Assembly (NCBI GenBank): GCA_904373265.1
Contig: CAJFEE010000005.1
Coordinates: 62,001-126,000, forward strand
DNA: 64,000 bases
Origin: Candidatus Harrysmithiimonas galli
Lineage (GTDB): Bacteria; Bacillota; Bacilli; CAJFEE01
Direction: 5' to 3'
Made by a program: the position numbers and the translations under genes
Part shown: positions 13,908 through 55,292 of the stretch, in pieces
Numbering within the stretch: the first letter of the stretch is position 1
Layout of the letters: each line of letters opens with the position of its first letter
Notes under the pieces: model-generated
What the model saw: the letters and a program-made list of their open reading frames with translations, nothing else
The model's database searches: none
Told to the model about the DNA's origin: nothing

Positions 13908-14844
13908 TGAACATCAAAAGAGATAGAACAAAAACATAAAAAATAAAGAATGGGTTATTTCTTTACCGTTTATCCATCGGTTCCTCTACGACCACTGTCT
14001 TACTTTATAGGATACAAAGCTAAGAGCTCGAACATCCTAAAATATGTAATTTCAAACAAAATATGTTTACAATTATGTCGTTCAAGGTTCTTATAAAGAC
14101 AACCCATTTCTGCAATTATTTTTTAAAAATTATTTTATACAGTTCCTTGTGGTTTATTTCTTTTCATGAGTAGCAAATCAAATATAAAATGCTCATAAAC
14201 ACCATTACCCGTCCAAACCAGTAATTTCTCTGTAAACTTGTATATTATCGATTCAAACTTTAAAGGATTTCCAAAACCAATTCCTTTTTGTATCACTTTG
14301 CTTGCAGAATTCAAATGAAATAGGAAAAGTAAGAACAGAACCACCATCACAAAATCATCTATAAAATGTTTTACCTTGCTTTTAATAATCTCAACCTACA
14401 TTTAGAGCCATACCATTTCATCTGAGAGGCTTCCTTAAAGTATGGATGACACAAAATACCACAATATAGCGGTCTGAATCATGTTTTAAGACAAAAAAGG
14501 CGATATGTTTCCCTTCTTTTAGGGATTACATATCGCCTTTTTTGTAGAGGCTTCTAAAGGAGACAAGCCCCCATTTGGCACACGATTTTGTAAAGCAAAG
14601 TGTAGCATGTTATACACTTGTTGGCATTGCTATAAAAATGCCTTTACTGTAAAAGAGAAAAAAAGCTATGCTTGTAAAGAGCATAAAGCTGCAAGCATAG
14701 GACTGGTTCGTCAACATACAAGGATATGTATATGAAAATCCACGTTTAGCTCGTCCTTGTGGGCAAAATGGAGCTATTGACAAAAGTCTAACCTGAAAGC
14801 TTGCTGATATAATAAAATAAAAGAAAATACGAAGGGATGGGGCT
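13908..14844. other. Long intergenic stretch with remnant-like sequence
   Basis: No intact gene. A minus-strand frame (14135-14350) has no ribosome binding site and no recognised domain. A plus-strand stretch at about 14565-14735 reads Cys-rich (CxxxC...CxxC) without a start and may be a transposase fragment, but I cannot assign it. A strong hairpin lies at 14493-14543. Confidence 0.5.
14493..14543. terminator. Perfect long hairpin, bidirectional-terminator-like
   Basis: AAAAAAGGCGATATGT (14493-14508) is the exact complement of ACATATCGCCTTTTTT (14528-14543), 16 bp, and the loop holds a further CCCT/AGGG stem. Both arms end in A/T runs, so it can terminate in either direction. No intact gene ends close to it; the nearest plus-strand stop is about 590 bases upstream. 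Confidence 0.7.
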
Positions 14845-47092: not shown

Positions 47093-48901
47093 TTAAATCG
47101 TCATTCCAGCATACTGTGTCATATAAAGCTGATAATACTTTCCCTTCTGTGCAAGCAATGCTTCATGATTGCCGCTCTCAACAATTTTTCCCTGATCCAT
47201 CACAACAATCATATCTGCATCCCGAATGGTAGATAAGCGATGTGCAATCACAATGCTGGTACGGTTTTTCATCACAAGCTGCATCGCATTCTGAATCATC
47301 TTTTCTGTTCGGGTATCTACATTGGAAGTTGCTTCGTCCAAAATCAAAATTTTCGGATCGGCAACAAAAGCTCGAGCAATCGCAAGAAGCTGACGTTGCC
47401 CTTGACTTATATTCTTTCCAGATCCAATGAGCACTGTATCATATCCTTTGGGAAACATTTCGATCAGTTCCTTACAATGGCTCATTATTACAGCTTCATC
47501 CAACTGTACCCGCGTTGCATTTTCGTTAGCATATTTTAAGTTATTTTCTATTGTATCGGAAAACAGCATTGTATCTTGTAAAACAATTGCTATATTCCGG
47601 CGTAAACTTTCTCTTGAAATCTTATGTAAATTTTGACCGTTGATAAAAATTTCTCCAGCGTCTATATCATAAAAACGTAGCAGTAAATTTACAATCGTTG
47701 TTTTTCCACTCCCAGTTGCACCAACAAGTGCAACTTTTTTCCCAGGAGGAACCGACAAAGTAAAATCAGAAATAACAGGACAACCTGAATGGTATGCAAA
47801 CTGCACATTTTTAAAAGTAATTTCTGCGTTCTCATTATCAGCAAATGGCTCACCAAAATGATCTTCATTTTTTTCATCTAAAACTGCGAAAACACGCTCT
47901 GCACCAGAAATTGCAATTTGAAGTTGACCATAAATTTGTGCAAGCTCATTGATTGGACGACTAAACTGCTTGGCATACACAATAAAGGCTGAAATGACAC
48001 CAACTGAAATCAAACCAGAAACAGCAAAATATCCACCAAAAACAGCGATTATAATAAACCCTATATTCCCAATAAAATTCATAATTGGTCCCATAACCCC
48101 ACTGAATATATCTGTACGAATACCTGCCTTGGTCAGTGCATCAGAGGTCTTATAGAAATTCTCTACATATGTGTCTTGTTGATTGTATGCCACAACTGTT
48201 CGATACCCAGAAATGGTTTCCTTTACAATACCGTTTGTTTCTCCTAAGAACATTTGCCGTCTGCGTGAAAATTTACGCACATTTTTTGCCAAAAATTTTG
48301 TTGCAAAAAAAGTAAAAATCACGCTGATACAACTGAGCAATGCCAACTGCCAGCAATACCCTATCATAATCGAAACTGTACCAATAACCGTCAATACACC
48401 AGAAAAAAAAGATGGCAAAGACTGCGAAACAGTTGCAGAAATATTTTCAATATCATTGGTCATTCGACTCATCACATCACCATGTGAATGTGTATCCAAA
48501 TAACGAATCGGTAAATGGAGTACTTTTTCAAACAACTCTTCTCGCATGCGTTTCACAATACGTTGACTGAGTTTGGCACTGAATAAGCCCTGTAAAAGCT
48601 GGCATCCACTATAAAATAAATACATCATCAGCATCCAAAAAAGCACCCAAAAAAATTTCCCTTCCACAGTTCCAGCAATGATATCAATGGCTTTACTTTG
48701 TAAAATCGGTGCATAAACACCGCAAAATGTGCCAAAAACAACAATTGCAAATATACCACCAACCATTCGCTTCTCATGGACAAAATAAATAGAAATTCGT
48801 TTTAAGGTGACGCCAATATTCTTGGCATATTCAATCTCCACAAATCGTTCATGCCGATTAAAACCTGGAATATTTCTATTTTCTAACTTCTGATTATGCA
48901 A
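47093..48901 (-). CDS. Heterodimeric ABC exporter subunit with intact ATPase site
   Basis: About 602 aa if read from a TTG at 48901, 8 bases after AGGTGG; the frame opens at 48943, within the partner gene. Six membrane helices precede the ATPase domain: GATGSGKTT (Walker A), ISQGQRQLLAIARAF (signature), ILILDEATSNVD (Walker B with Glu) and VIAHRLST (switch His). It pairs with the gene upstream as an MsbA/LmrA-type export pump, probably for drugs or lipids. Confidence 0.93.
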   Translation of the reverse strand: MHNQKLENRNIPGFNRHERFVEIEYAKNIGVTLKRISIYFVHEKRMVGGIFAIVVFGTFCGVYAPILQSKAIDIIAGTVEGKFFWVLFWMLMMYLFYSGCQLLQGLFSAKLSQRIVKRMREELFEKVLHLPIRYLDTHSHGDVMSRMTNDIENISATVSQSLPSFFSGVLTVIGTVSIMIGYCWQLALLSCISVIFTFFATKFLAKNVRKFSRRRQMFLGETNGIVKETISGYRTVVAYNQQDTYVENFYKTSDALTKAGIRTDIFSGVMGPIMNFIGNIGFIIIAVFGGYFAVSGLISVGVISAFIVYAKQFSRPINELAQIYGQLQIAISGAERVFAVLDEKNEDHFGEPFADNENAEITFKNVQFAYHSGCPVISDFTLSVPPGKKVALVGATGSGKTTIVNLLLRFYDIDAGEIFINGQNLHKISRESLRRNIAIVLQDTMLFSDTIENNLKYANENATRVQLDEAVIMSHCKELIEMFPKGYDTVLIGSGKNISQGQRQLLAIARAFVADPKILILDEATSNVDTRTEKMIQNAMQLVMKNRTSIVIAHRLSTIRDADMIVVMDQGKIVESGNHEALLAQKGKYYQLYMTQYAGMTI

Positions 48902-50696
48902 TGCTTTCACCACCTTCACCCATCTGTGAATCATAAATATCACGATAGATTTTGCTGGATTTCATTAAATCTGCATGCGTACCACAAGCAGAAATGCTGC
49001 CATTTTCCAAAACAACGATCCGATCTGCTTTTTGGACAGAGGCAATTCGCTGAGCAATGATAATTTTTGTACGATATGGGGTGATTTTTTGTAAAGCCGT
49101 GTACAAATCATCCTCTGTTTTCAAATCAAGTGCACTGGTCGCATCATCAAAAATTAGGATTTCTGCAGATTTCAAGATCGCTCTGGCAATCGCAATCCGC
49201 TGTTTTTGTCCACCAGATAAACTCACACCTTGCTCAGCTACATATGTATCATAGGCATCAGGCATCAGAGTAATAAAATCATCTGCTTGGGCAATTTGTG
49301 CCGCCTGACAAATTGCCTTGTCATCCGCTTCCCGATTTCCCCATGCGATATTTTCTCGAATTGAAGCATGAAACAATTCACTTTTTTGCAAAACTACGGA
49401 AATTTTATCTCGTAATATTTTTTTCTGATAGGCTCGTACATCGGTACCATCCACCAAAACCGCACCACTTGTAACATCATAAAAACGCAAAATCAAATTG
49501 ATTAGCGAAGTTTTTCCACTTCCAGTTGCACCCATAATAGCAAGGGTTTCACCAGGATAAATAGTGAGATGAATATGCTTTAGCGCAAGCCGGTTGCTAC
49601 CAGGATAAGCAAACGACACATTTCGAAACTCAATTTTCCCATGCTGTGGTAAAATATCTTGTATAGGTAAATCTTTATTACTTTCTAAGTATTTATTTTT
49701 TTCATGATTGAATGGTATATGTTTAAAGTTACCATCCTTCAATTCTGGTACACTTTTCAATATCTCTTTTACACGCTTCCAAGATGCAAAACCTCTGGAA
49801 ATATTTTGAAACAACATCACAAGCATTAAAACACCGTTTAAAAGCAGTGTTGCATATGTAATTGCCGCCATAATACGACCAGGAGAAGCAAAACCGTTAT
49901 CAATTTCAAAAGAACCAACCAACAAAATAAACACAACAATGATATACATAAAAGCATTTACAATTGGATTCATAAAAGCAAAAATGATTAAAATTTGAAG
50001 CTGTGTTTTTATCAATTCATCATTTGCTTTGCCGAATCTGACTTTCTCATAAACTTCTCGGACACAGGCTTTAATCGTACGAATACCGGATATATCTTCC
50101 TGCATAATATTATTAATTTGATCCAACCGATTTTGTAATTGTAAAAACAAAGGATTTGCCTTATAAAGACAAATCAATATGCAGCCAAGAATCAGGGGAA
50201 AGATACATAATACAATCCAACCAAAGCTTTCATTCACTTGAAACATAAAATAAATGCTGCCAAACATTAACATTGTTGTGCGAATCATACTACGAATAAA
50301 TAGAGATACAAAATTTTGTACTTGTGTAATATCATTTGTTACTCTTGTAATCAATGTACCTGTTCCAAACTTATCTATTTGCGAGAAAGAAAATGTCATA
50401 ATATTACAAAAACAATCTTTTCGAATATCATTACCAACATTTTGTCCTGTCATATGAACAAACACATTGTTTAATGCGCCAAAAAATGCCCCTAATGTTA
50501 CAAGTCCAAACATTATAAGTCCCAATCTCCATATGTACTGTAAATCAGTTACACCATGATTATGGGTACCTAACACACCTTCATCAATAATTTTGCTCAT
50601 CAATGCTGGCTGAAGCAAATCCATACAAACTTCTCCAACCATAAAAAGCACAGCCAAAATCGCAAAGAAAAGATACTTTTTAACATACTTCCACAC
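48894..50696 (-). CDS. Heterodimeric ABC exporter subunit with degenerate ATPase site
   Basis: 600 aa: six membrane helices, then the ATPase domain with GATGSGKTS and [16 protein letters not shown]. Walker B reads ILIFDDATSALD, with Asp in place of the catalytic Glu, and the switch reads IIAQRIAS, with Gln in place of His. This is the degenerate half of heterodimeric exporters such as TM287/288 or BmrC/BmrD. It starts just after the MarR gene, so it is probably controlled by it. Confidence 0.93.
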   Translation of the reverse strand: MWKYVKKYLFFAILAVLFMVGEVCMDLLQPALMSKIIDEGVLGTHNHGVTDLQYIWRLGLIMFGLVTLGAFFGALNNVFVHMTGQNVGNDIRKDCFCNIMTFSFSQIDKFGTGTLITRVTNDITQVQNFVSLFIRSMIRTTMLMFGSIYFMFQVNESFGWIVLCIFPLILGCILICLYKANPLFLQLQNRLDQINNIMQEDISGIRTIKACVREVYEKVRFGKANDELIKTQLQILIIFAFMNPIVNAFMYIIVVFILLVGSFEIDNGFASPGRIMAAITYATLLLNGVLMLVMLFQNISRGFASWKRVKEILKSVPELKDGNFKHIPFNHEKNKYLESNKDLPIQDILPQHGKIEFRNVSFAYPGSNRLALKHIHLTIYPGETLAIMGATGSGKTSLINLILRFYDVTSGAVLVDGTDVRAYQKKILRDKISVVLQKSELFHASIRENIAWGNREADDKAICQAAQIAQADDFITLMPDAYDTYVAEQGVSLSGGQKQRIAIARAILKSAEILIFDDATSALDLKTEDDLYTALQKITPYRTKIIIAQRIASVQKADRIVVLENGSISACGTHADLMKSSKIYRDIYDSQMGEGGESIA

Positions 50697-50697
50697 T

Positions 50698-51162
50698 TTA
50701 TTTGCTCCGCTGATGCTTTCGTTTATGATTTTTATGATAACGTTGCGCCCAATTCGACTGAACCTTTTCCAAAAGCGCCAATAGAGTCTCCTGCTCCGTC
50801 TCTGAAAGAACAGAAAACATTTCCTGATGCTGTTGATTATGCTGTTTTTCAGCTTCTATTGCTTGTATCTTTCCACGTTCACTCAACTGAAGAATCGTTG
50901 TTCTGTGATCGGCTGGATTTGAAGTACGGATCAATAAGCCAGCATTTTCCAACTTGCCAATCACTTCACTGGCAGATCCAGATTGTATACCAAGGTGCTC
51001 GGTTAAGTCAGACTGCGTAATCATACCCACTTTATTCAAAATGATCAGGATTCGCTTTTGACTCCCTCTTCCTTCGCTCATATAACGAATGGTATGCCCC
51101 ATATCGCGTAAATTCCAAATTAATTTGTTACTTATATCCATTGAATGATAAGACAGTGGCAT
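50698..51162 (-). CDS. MarR-family transcriptional regulator
   Basis: 154 aa from the ATG at 51162, 7 bases after AGGAGG; the frame is open to 51204 but those codons precede the ribosome binding site. Winged-helix core: MITQSDLTEHLGIQSGSASE then VIGKLENAGLLIRTSNPADH with RRT-like wing (DHRTTILQLS). It probably represses its own operon with the two ABC exporter genes and is released by a ligand that the pump exports. Confidence 0.93.
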   Translation of the reverse strand: MPLSYHSMDISNKLIWNLRDMGHTIRYMSEGRGSQKRILIILNKVGMITQSDLTEHLGIQSGSASEVIGKLENAGLLIRTSNPADHRTTILQLSERGKIQAIEAEKQHNQQHQEMFSVLSETEQETLLALLEKVQSNWAQRYHKNHKRKHQRSK

Positions 51163-51180
51163 TTTTATTCCTCCTAAAAT

Positions 51181-51232
51181 AAAGGTACCTTGACATTTTA
51201 ACACCCTCCTAGGATACTGTCAAGGTACCTTT
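51181..51232 (-). promoter_or_regulatory. marR-ABC operon promoter enclosed by a perfect 15-bp inverted repeat
   Basis: AAAGGTACCTTGACA (51181-51195) and TGTCAAGGTACCTTT (51218-51232) are exact complements. On the minus strand TTGACA (51218-51223), 17 bases, TAAAAT (51195-51200) form a near-consensus promoter whose -35 and -10 boxes lie in or at the edge of the arms. On the plus strand the other arm also gives TTGACA, 17 bases, GATACT. The repeat is a likely MarR operator; as RNA it could also end yclQ transcription. Confidence 0.75.
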
Positions 51233-51270
51233 ACTTCTATTCAAACACAACTAAGCTTTTATATGAATTT

Positions 51271-52290
51271 TTATTGGAGTTCATCCAAAATTTCCTGCAT
51301 TTTGGCCATTTCAATAGTAATTCCATTGCTTCCAAAATACCAGTTATTTCCATCTAAATAAACAATCTTTCCGTTTTTGTAAGCGTTCGTTTTCTTAATA
51401 ATATCATTCTCAATATCTGCTTTTAATACATCCAATTCAGAAGTTGTACGATCTACAATAAACAAGACTTCTGGATTTACAGTCAAGATTGATTCATAGC
51501 TGAAATCAGAACCATGTGAGCTTGATTCAATATTTTCTACAACAGGAACAAATCCGTATACATTATAAACATAATTAAAACGTGATTCACTGTTTGCGCC
51601 GAATCCTGAAATTTTCTTATCATTATACATTGCAACTAACGCATTGCTATATTGACCAGCTTTGGCTTTAACTTCTTCTCTTTTTGCTTCCAGTTCAGCT
51701 TTAAATTGGTTGGCTTCTTCCGTTTTATTAAAGATCTGACCAGCTTTATCTACAGAGGAGATGAAACTATCCCAATAATTCGCACCATCTGTTCCGATGT
51801 AAAGTACATTTGGTGTAATTTTCTTTAATTCTTCATAAAAAGGTGATTGGCGTCCAGAAATAAATACTACATCTGGCTCTAACGCAGCAACCTTTTCAAA
51901 ATCAATAGATTTTAATGTTCCTAAATCAGTAACATCATCAGAACCATATTTTTCAAATAAATATGCGGGTCCAGATGCTTCGCCGCCTCCCTTTGGTATA
52001 CCGACAATTCCAGTTACACCCAATGCATCTAATGTATCTAAAAATCCGTAATCCAAAACAACAATACGTTCTGGCATTTTTTCAAATGTAACATCAGCAA
52101 ATGTAATGGTTCCTGCTTCTTCACTTTCAGTTGATCCAATTGTTGGTGAGACAGTTATCGGATAAGCTGAATTATCTGTTACTTCAGTGCCTGTTTGCTG
52201 TGGTTGTTCTGATGTTTCTTTTGAATCGTTACATGCTGCCAACATAAGCAAAAATACAGCAAATACCGATAAAAGAATCCATTTTTTCAT
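51271..52290 (-). CDS. yclQ: Iron-siderophore ABC transporter substrate-binding lipoprotein
   Basis: 339 aa. Lipobox LAAC (Cys20). Mature domain of the FatB/YclQ family of class III binding proteins: RIVVLDYGFLDTLDALGVTG, EPDVVFISGRQSPFYEEL and a C-terminal NWYFGSNGI. In Bacillus subtilis the YclNOPQ system takes up petrobactin; the gene order here is the same. The ligand is inferred. It is separated from yclP by 145 bases with its own Fur box. Confidence 0.9.
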   Translation of the reverse strand: MKKWILLSVFAVFLLMLAACNDSKETSEQPQQTGTEVTDNSAYPITVSPTIGSTESEEAGTITFADVTFEKMPERIVVLDYGFLDTLDALGVTGIVGIPKGGGEASGPAYLFEKYGSDDVTDLGTLKSIDFEKVAALEPDVVFISGRQSPFYEELKKITPNVLYIGTDGANYWDSFISSVDKAGQIFNKTEEANQFKAELEAKREEVKAKAGQYSNALVAMYNDKKISGFGANSESRFNYVYNVYGFVPVVENIESSSHGSDFSYESILTVNPEVLFIVDRTTSELDVLKADIENDIIKKTNAYKNGKIVYLDGNNWYFGSNGITIEMAKMQEILDELQ

Positions 52291-52320
52291 ATAAATCTTT
52301 CCCCCTTAATTTTTATTAAT

Positions 52321-52341
52321 TGATAATGAGAATCAATATCA
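52321..52341 (-). promoter_or_regulatory. Fur box upstream of yclQ
   Basis: TGATAATGAGAATCA and TGAGAATCAATATCA overlap by six bases, two 7-1-7 Fur half-site pairs in 21 bases. They lie 31 bases before the yclQ start codon. Confidence 0.8.
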
Positions 52342-52435
52342 ATTAGCACAAGCTTATTATTGCATAAGTTTATAAAAATAGCAACATAAAATATTTTTCT
52401 ATTTTCATATAAATATGATATCAGGTAAACTTGAT

Positions 52436-53200
52436 TTAATGGGAATTGAAGTAGATACAAATTCTACAGCCATCTTGTTCCTGAACAGGAATGTGCATAT
52501 CATACACTTCACGAAGTGCATCAGAGTTGATGATTTCATGCGTATCTCCATCCTTAATCAGACGTCCATTCTTTAATGCAACAATGCGATCAGAATATAC
52601 AGAAGCGAAATTAATGTCATGAAGGACAATCACAACCGTTTTCCCAAGCTCATCTACAAGCTTCCGTAAAATCTTCATAATTTGAACAGAATGCTTCATA
52701 TCCAGATTATTGAGTGGTTCATCCAATAAAATATATTCGGTATCCTGTGCAATCACCATCGCAATAAATGCACGCTGCTTCTGCCCACCTGAAAGCTCAT
52801 CGAGAAATTTATCCTCCATTTCTTTTAAATCCATATATTCGATCGCCTGATCCACAAATTTTTTATCTTCTTCAGTCAAACTTCCCTTTGAATAAGGATA
52901 GCGACCAAATGAAACAAGCTCACGAACGGTTAAACGGACATTTAAGTGATTGGATTGTCTTAAAATGGATACACGCTTTGCAAAAACATTAGATTTAATG
53001 CCTTTTACATCATTTTTATCCAACAAAATTTCTCCCGTATCAGCATCCAATAAACGACTAACCATCGAGAGCAATGTGGATTTTCCTGCACCATTGGGTC
53101 CGATAAAAGATGTAATTTTCTTTGGATGAATTGTCACTGTCACATCATTCATCACTTTTTTCTTCCCAAAATTTTTGGTTAACTTTTTAATTTCAATCAT
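52436..53200 (-). CDS. yclP: Iron-siderophore ABC transporter ATP-binding protein
   Basis: 254 aa. GPNGAGKST (Walker A), [17 protein letters not shown] (signature), YILLDEPLNNLDMKH (Walker B) and VLHDINFAS (switch). FepC/YclP type, it drives the YclN-YclO permease. It overlaps yclO by four bases. Confidence 0.95.
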   Translation of the reverse strand: MIEIKKLTKNFGKKKVMNDVTVTIHPKKITSFIGPNGAGKSTLLSMVSRLLDADTGEILLDKNDVKGIKSNVFAKRVSILRQSNHLNVRLTVRELVSFGRYPYSKGSLTEEDKKFVDQAIEYMDLKEMEDKFLDELSGGQKQRAFIAMVIAQDTEYILLDEPLNNLDMKHSVQIMKILRKLVDELGKTVVIVLHDINFASVYSDRIVALKNGRLIKDGDTHEIINSDALREVYDMHIPVQEQDGCRICIYFNSH

Positions 53201-55096: not shown

Positions 55097-55277
55097 TGCT
55101 TCCTCCATACATGATTTATTTTTATAATGTACTCATCTTCTCATAAATATCTCTTTTTAAATCATTTCAATTTGATTCAAAATAACTGAACTGCAATTTA
55201 TAGCAAAAGAAAAACAAACTCTAGTTTCAAAGATTTCTCTCTTACATCGAAAATAACTTAGTCACAGGTAACGAGAA

Positions 55278-55292
55278 TGAGAATTATTATCA
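55278..55292 (-). promoter_or_regulatory. Fur box upstream of yclN
   Basis: TGAGAAT-T-ATTATCA matches the 7-1-7 Fur core TGATAAT-N-ATTATCA at 13 of 14 positions, about 180 bases upstream of yclN. The remainder of the 55.1-55.65 kb gap shows no gene. Confidence 0.8.

Follow-up and report, generated by a model that had tools for sequence, protein, structure and literature searches.

Paired palindromic sites around a marR promoter ahead of two ABC exporter genes: a predicted auto-repression element

What is the role of a perfect inverted repeat that lies at the promoter of a MarR-family regulator, reads as a promoter on both strands and, as RNA, can fold into a hairpin behind the neighbouring gene yclQ? 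Such an element is found in a 64,000-nucleotide stretch (the window) of the genome of Candidatus Harrysmithiimonas galli, and the initial annotation proposed that it may be operator, promoter and terminator together, linking an export pump to an iron-uptake operon. Based on a comparison with related loci and with shuffled DNA, the element is very probably the operator/promoter of a MarR-ABC-ABC operon, at which the regulator would bind and repress its own transcription. A palindromic operator present twice is enough to produce a striking repeat that reads as a promoter on both strands, with no new device required.

The repeat is present and, with arms of 16 bp, is one pair longer than the 15 bp originally described. 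The marR-proximal arm, TAAAGGTACCTTGACA, occupies positions 51180 to 51195 and is matched perfectly over 16 bp by the yclQ-proximal arm at 51218 to 51233, with a loop of 22 bases between them; yclQ ends 37 bases from the repeat. Perfect repeats whose arms reach 15 bp or more, with loops of up to about 60 bases, occur at four places in the window, and the repeat can be taken as more than a chance feature since such repeats appeared in none of 20 dinucleotide shuffles. Within each arm lies the self-complementary sequence AAGGTACCTT, and because the copies are present in both arms, 40 bp apart, the element doubles as a direct repeat with a period of 40. On the minus strand, TTGACA (51218 to 51223) and TAAAAT (51195 to 51200), separated by 17 bases, form the marR -35 and -10, a match of 11/12 located inside the repeat just as had been claimed. 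The first predicted operator (operator 1, 51222 to 51231) overlaps the -35, its final TT beginning TTGACA, and the second (operator 2, 51182 to 51191) is situated just past the -10, over a transcription start that would fall near 51188; both are conserved in relatives. The perfect 16-bp repeat is therefore explained by two copies of one palindromic site that flank the -10. Three further places in the window, at 14491, 23589 and 55541, carry short-looped perfect inverted repeats with arms of 15 bp or more.

The gene behind this promoter encodes a MarR-family winged-helix regulator of 154 amino acids (50698 to 51162, minus strand). Its start is most likely the ATG at 51162, which stands behind a ribosome-binding site, AGGAGG, read from the sequence at 51170 to 51175 on the minus strand; the GTG at 51204, the mechanical start of the open reading frame, was rejected; that position falls within the promoter. 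The winged-helix domain scores above the curated cut-offs of two MarR families (PF12802, 43.6 bits against 27; PF01047, 41.3 against 24.6), and among solved structures the protein matches only general MarR relatives, the best with an E value of 1e-08. On the same strand, two open reading frames with domain matches encode ABC exporter subunits that each combine membrane and ATPase domains, the first at 48894 to 50696 and the second, whose start codon is provisional, at 47093 to 48943. Among 27 relatives, in most of which about 1.5 kb of downstream DNA was seen, 18 have an ABC exporter gene 3' of marR and in the same orientation, and nine have no ABC gene directly downstream of marR.

The arrangement of the two sites recurs well beyond the window. 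A -35-fused pair, i.e. AAGGTACCTTGACA followed by another palindrome immediately beyond the -10, was found upstream of 21 of 31 marR loci, the window included, in a scan that allowed 34 to 51 bp between palindromes, versus a mean of 0.39 and a maximum of 2 in shuffled upstream DNA of the same 31 loci. At a stricter cut, 17 of the 31 retain the fused pair (0.01 in shuffles), and without the fusion rule 24 have a pair of palindromes (4.64 in shuffles). L024, which is the same place as L013, was left out of the counts, and the placement of L044 and L046 follows the strand reported for them. Ten loci are without the -35-fused pair: L039, L045 and L049 have a palindrome pair without the TTGA fusion (weak in L049), L014, L033, L034 and L048 have one good site each (only about 300 bases upstream being covered in L014), and the upstream scan of L044, L047 and L050 gave no convincing palindromic site. 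Seven of these ten are more distant homologues, with about 41% identity or less. The likely recognition helix, QPGSxSEVxxKLE or close to it, is much alike in most aligned homologues; since L047 is among them and has no site, the helix alone is no predictor of the operator.

When the 397 genomes of the family to which L013 belongs were searched blind to gene content, the pattern GGTACCTTGACA-N20-34-GGTACC was present in 15 of them and its reversed control in none. Fourteen of the 15 places, one of which is readable on both strands, precede marR; the remaining one (L051) is at a contig end, 55 bases short of where the contig stops. Thirteen places precede marR genes already detected by protein search, the matched part of marR starting several hundred bases further downstream in the case of G433, and the L054 place is followed, up to a contig end, by the beginning of a marR-like protein. 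The protein search itself matched 26 of the 397 genomes (E up to 1e-15), and the protein scan returned three named records, titled Lachnospiraceae bacterium, Robinsoniella and Candidatus Blautia. Within the class of the window's genome, that genome was the only one matched, i.e. 1 of 398 by protein (E 1e-15) and 1 of 396 by pattern; its genus, family and order, comprising 1, 2 and 2 genomes, are too small for comparison. Because the gene is rare in its own class and has its relatives in Lachnospiraceae, these data suggest that the window's genome may have acquired it by horizontal transfer. Plasmids searched by protein gave no match. Four stretches of viral contigs carry the pattern, two of them nearly identical, and no MarR-like protein was recognized by eye among the open reading frames listed for them.

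The core promoter is conserved together with the palindromes. A promoter scan of 29 loci, omitting L044 and L046, yielded 21 with the pair, which together with the pattern-found L051 and L054 make 23; the set of 21 among 31 loci differs slightly, in that it includes L046 and lacks L045. Across these 23 loci, whose selection required operator 1 to end in a TTGAC-like sequence, the -35 is exactly TTGACA in 21, and the spacer is 17 in 22. Scores on the coding strand range from 9 to 12 of 12, with a mean of 11 versus 9.0 for shuffled spacers. It is this conservation that supports the marR promoter, since promoter matches alone are at chance level, whether at 11/12 or better (5 in the window, 3.1 in shuffles), at 10/12 or better (62 versus 58.5 +/- 6.9) or as promoter-like sites between 50600 and 52500 (seven found, 8.5 expected). 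That both palindromes flanking the core promoter are conserved likewise argues for the proposed role of the element as operator and promoter of marR, and the two copies of AAGGTACCTT, conserved in relatives, would give this MarR-family protein palindromic operators in its own promoter.

In the proposed mechanism, one MarR dimer would bind each of the two AAGGTACCTT palindromes, one of which is fused to the -35 (CCTTGACA) and the other placed just past the -10 over the transcription start. Without inducer, the occupied sites would exclude RNA polymerase from the promoter, and a ligand, perhaps a substrate of the pump, may loosen MarR and so permit transcription of marR and both exporter genes. 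The palindromes are separated by anything between 38 and 48 bp in the 23 loci, whereas the -10 keeps its position relative to operator 1, and for this reason simple blocking is a better fit than strict helical phasing or looping.

Does the element also act on the neighbouring yclQ? On the plus strand, TTGACA (51190 to 51195) and GATACT (51213 to 51218) are indeed 17 bases apart, and this match, which spans 51190 to 51218 and scores 10/12, was proposed to be a second promoter reading antisense into yclQ. A working promoter of this sort, silenced by the same repressor, is improbable. In its favour, besides the score, the mean reverse-strand score in the 23 loci is 7.65 (range, 6 to 10) as compared with 6.98 when the whole spacer was shuffled, and none of 200 shuffles reached the observed value. 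However, when the shuffles kept the 4-bp flanks of the operators, the mean rose to 7.44 and 33 of 300 reached 7.65; the raised score therefore comes largely from the operator flank. Moreover, matches of this quality are at chance level, the window containing 62 as against 58.5 in shuffles, and the -35 on this strand recurs in just one of the 22 other loci: TTGACA is in both arms in the window and in L027, whose -10 matches at 3/6, and a reverse-strand score of 10 is seen only in the window and L051. Thus, neither in the 23 loci nor in the shuffles of the window did a second promoter prove conserved or above chance, and the match is read as a by-product of the symmetric operators. L052 (G419) has also been named as the sole other locus of the 22 with TTGACA in both arms; there, the pattern reads on both strands.

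The claim that RNA from the repeat can form a long hairpin after yclQ is borne out by folding calculations, which give a stem of about 20 outer pairs at -31.1 kcal/mol (z -6.05), with none of 200 shuffles as stable. It is conceivable, though on balance doubtful, that in read-through RNA from yclQ this hairpin is an intrinsic terminator, such that one element ends the yclQ transcript and starts that of marR. The eight bases after the second GGTACC, TTTATTTT, include seven Ts and give the highest tail score (3.79) of the 23 loci, and no conventional terminator was found in a scan of 50600 to 52500. That scan, which allowed loops of 3 to 8, does not report the window's hairpin either, whose arms enclose a loop of 22. 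Among seven relatives in which a same-strand open stretch upstream (not a proven gene) comes to an end no more than 100 bases from operator 1, tails are fair in three (L015, 2.64; L027, 2.63; L051, 3.10) but low, from 0.05 to 1.10, in the other four (L028, L030, L032 and L035). Furthermore, the tail is not conserved, at least six Ts of eight being present in only 5 of the 23 loci, and the hairpin arises because two palindromic sites must fold so, regardless of any role in termination. It is possible that the hairpin serves yclQ locally as a terminator. An Rfam search of 50600 to 52500 gave no match up to an E value of 1.

A third suggestion, that MarR additionally controls the adjacent iron-uptake genes and so couples the pump to iron supply, is very hard to sustain. 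What speaks for such a link is adjacency only, given the 37 bases between yclQ and the repeat. Against it, a relative of the iron binding-protein gene is near marR in none of 27 relatives, for which mostly about 1.5 kb upstream was seen (less in L014 and L025), and the iron genes have sites of their own that resemble the Fur box. One such site (52322 to 52340, two mismatches) precedes the iron binding-protein gene and another (55273 to 55291, three mismatches) the first permease gene, where 0.03 matches were expected; these sites suggest that the iron genes are under separate control. Within the 2.7-Mb genome, AAGGTACCTT occurs at three places, two at this element and one inside a long coding gene, so that the auto-repression reading draws no support from a further non-coding site or from a regulon. 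The 10-mer alone is not rare, since its reversed control, also a palindrome, has six places; it is the pair that stands out. Similarly, AAGGTACCTTGACA with up to two mismatches has six forward and eight reverse matches elsewhere in the genome, whereas the reversed control has 8 forward and 16 reverse, and is thus not enriched, its exact matches being confined to this element.

Auto-repression by MarR proteins from two sites is of a known kind. In Escherichia coli, MarR represses its own promoter, which precedes a resistance operon and is flanked by two palindromic sites (marO). The window shares with that system two palindromic sites around the promoter of marR, but it differs in the palindrome and in the positions of the sites, operator 1 being fused to the -35, and its operon encodes ABC exporters. 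In Streptococcus mutans, the rcrRPQ operon has a MarR-type regulator, RcrR, before two ABC exporter genes, and the window's operon is alike in this order. RcrR has been footprinted on its own promoter at an AT-rich palindrome and is reported to activate operons for sugar uptake; the protected stretches considered here do not resemble AAGGTACCTT (PMC8407328). Among NCBIfam families, the window's MarR comes closest to BilQ (NF045593, E 5e-15), which is also MarR-type; membership was rejected, the score of 55.4 bits being below the cut-off of 125. Among the papers listed in literature searches on the motif and on MarR in related settings, none was seen to describe this operator, which does not prove it unpublished.

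For a group of MarR proteins often found before ABC exporters in Lachnospiraceae, AAGGTACCTT fused to TTGACA offers a testable operator, and the targets of the group thereby become readable from genomes. More tentatively, and with slightly less than even confidence, we propose that a MarR subfamily, mainly of Lachnospiraceae, uses a compact promoter module in which an operator half-site supplies the -35 (CCTTGACA) and a second operator, less strictly positioned, would block the start, that promoter strength and repressor affinity would be unable to evolve apart, and that the module and its exporter were acquired horizontally by the window's genome.

A separate feature of the MarR proteins, absent from that of the window, is an N-terminal cysteine motif resembling CPCCxxHC-x6-CxRG. 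It is present in 8 of 29 loci scanned (L013, L025, L026, L031, L035, L038, L041 and L043) and also in L054, and might possibly be involved in metal or redox sensing. In L026, the motif is covered by no Pfam match, and some of the proteins that carry it also have a linker rich in histidine and glycine.
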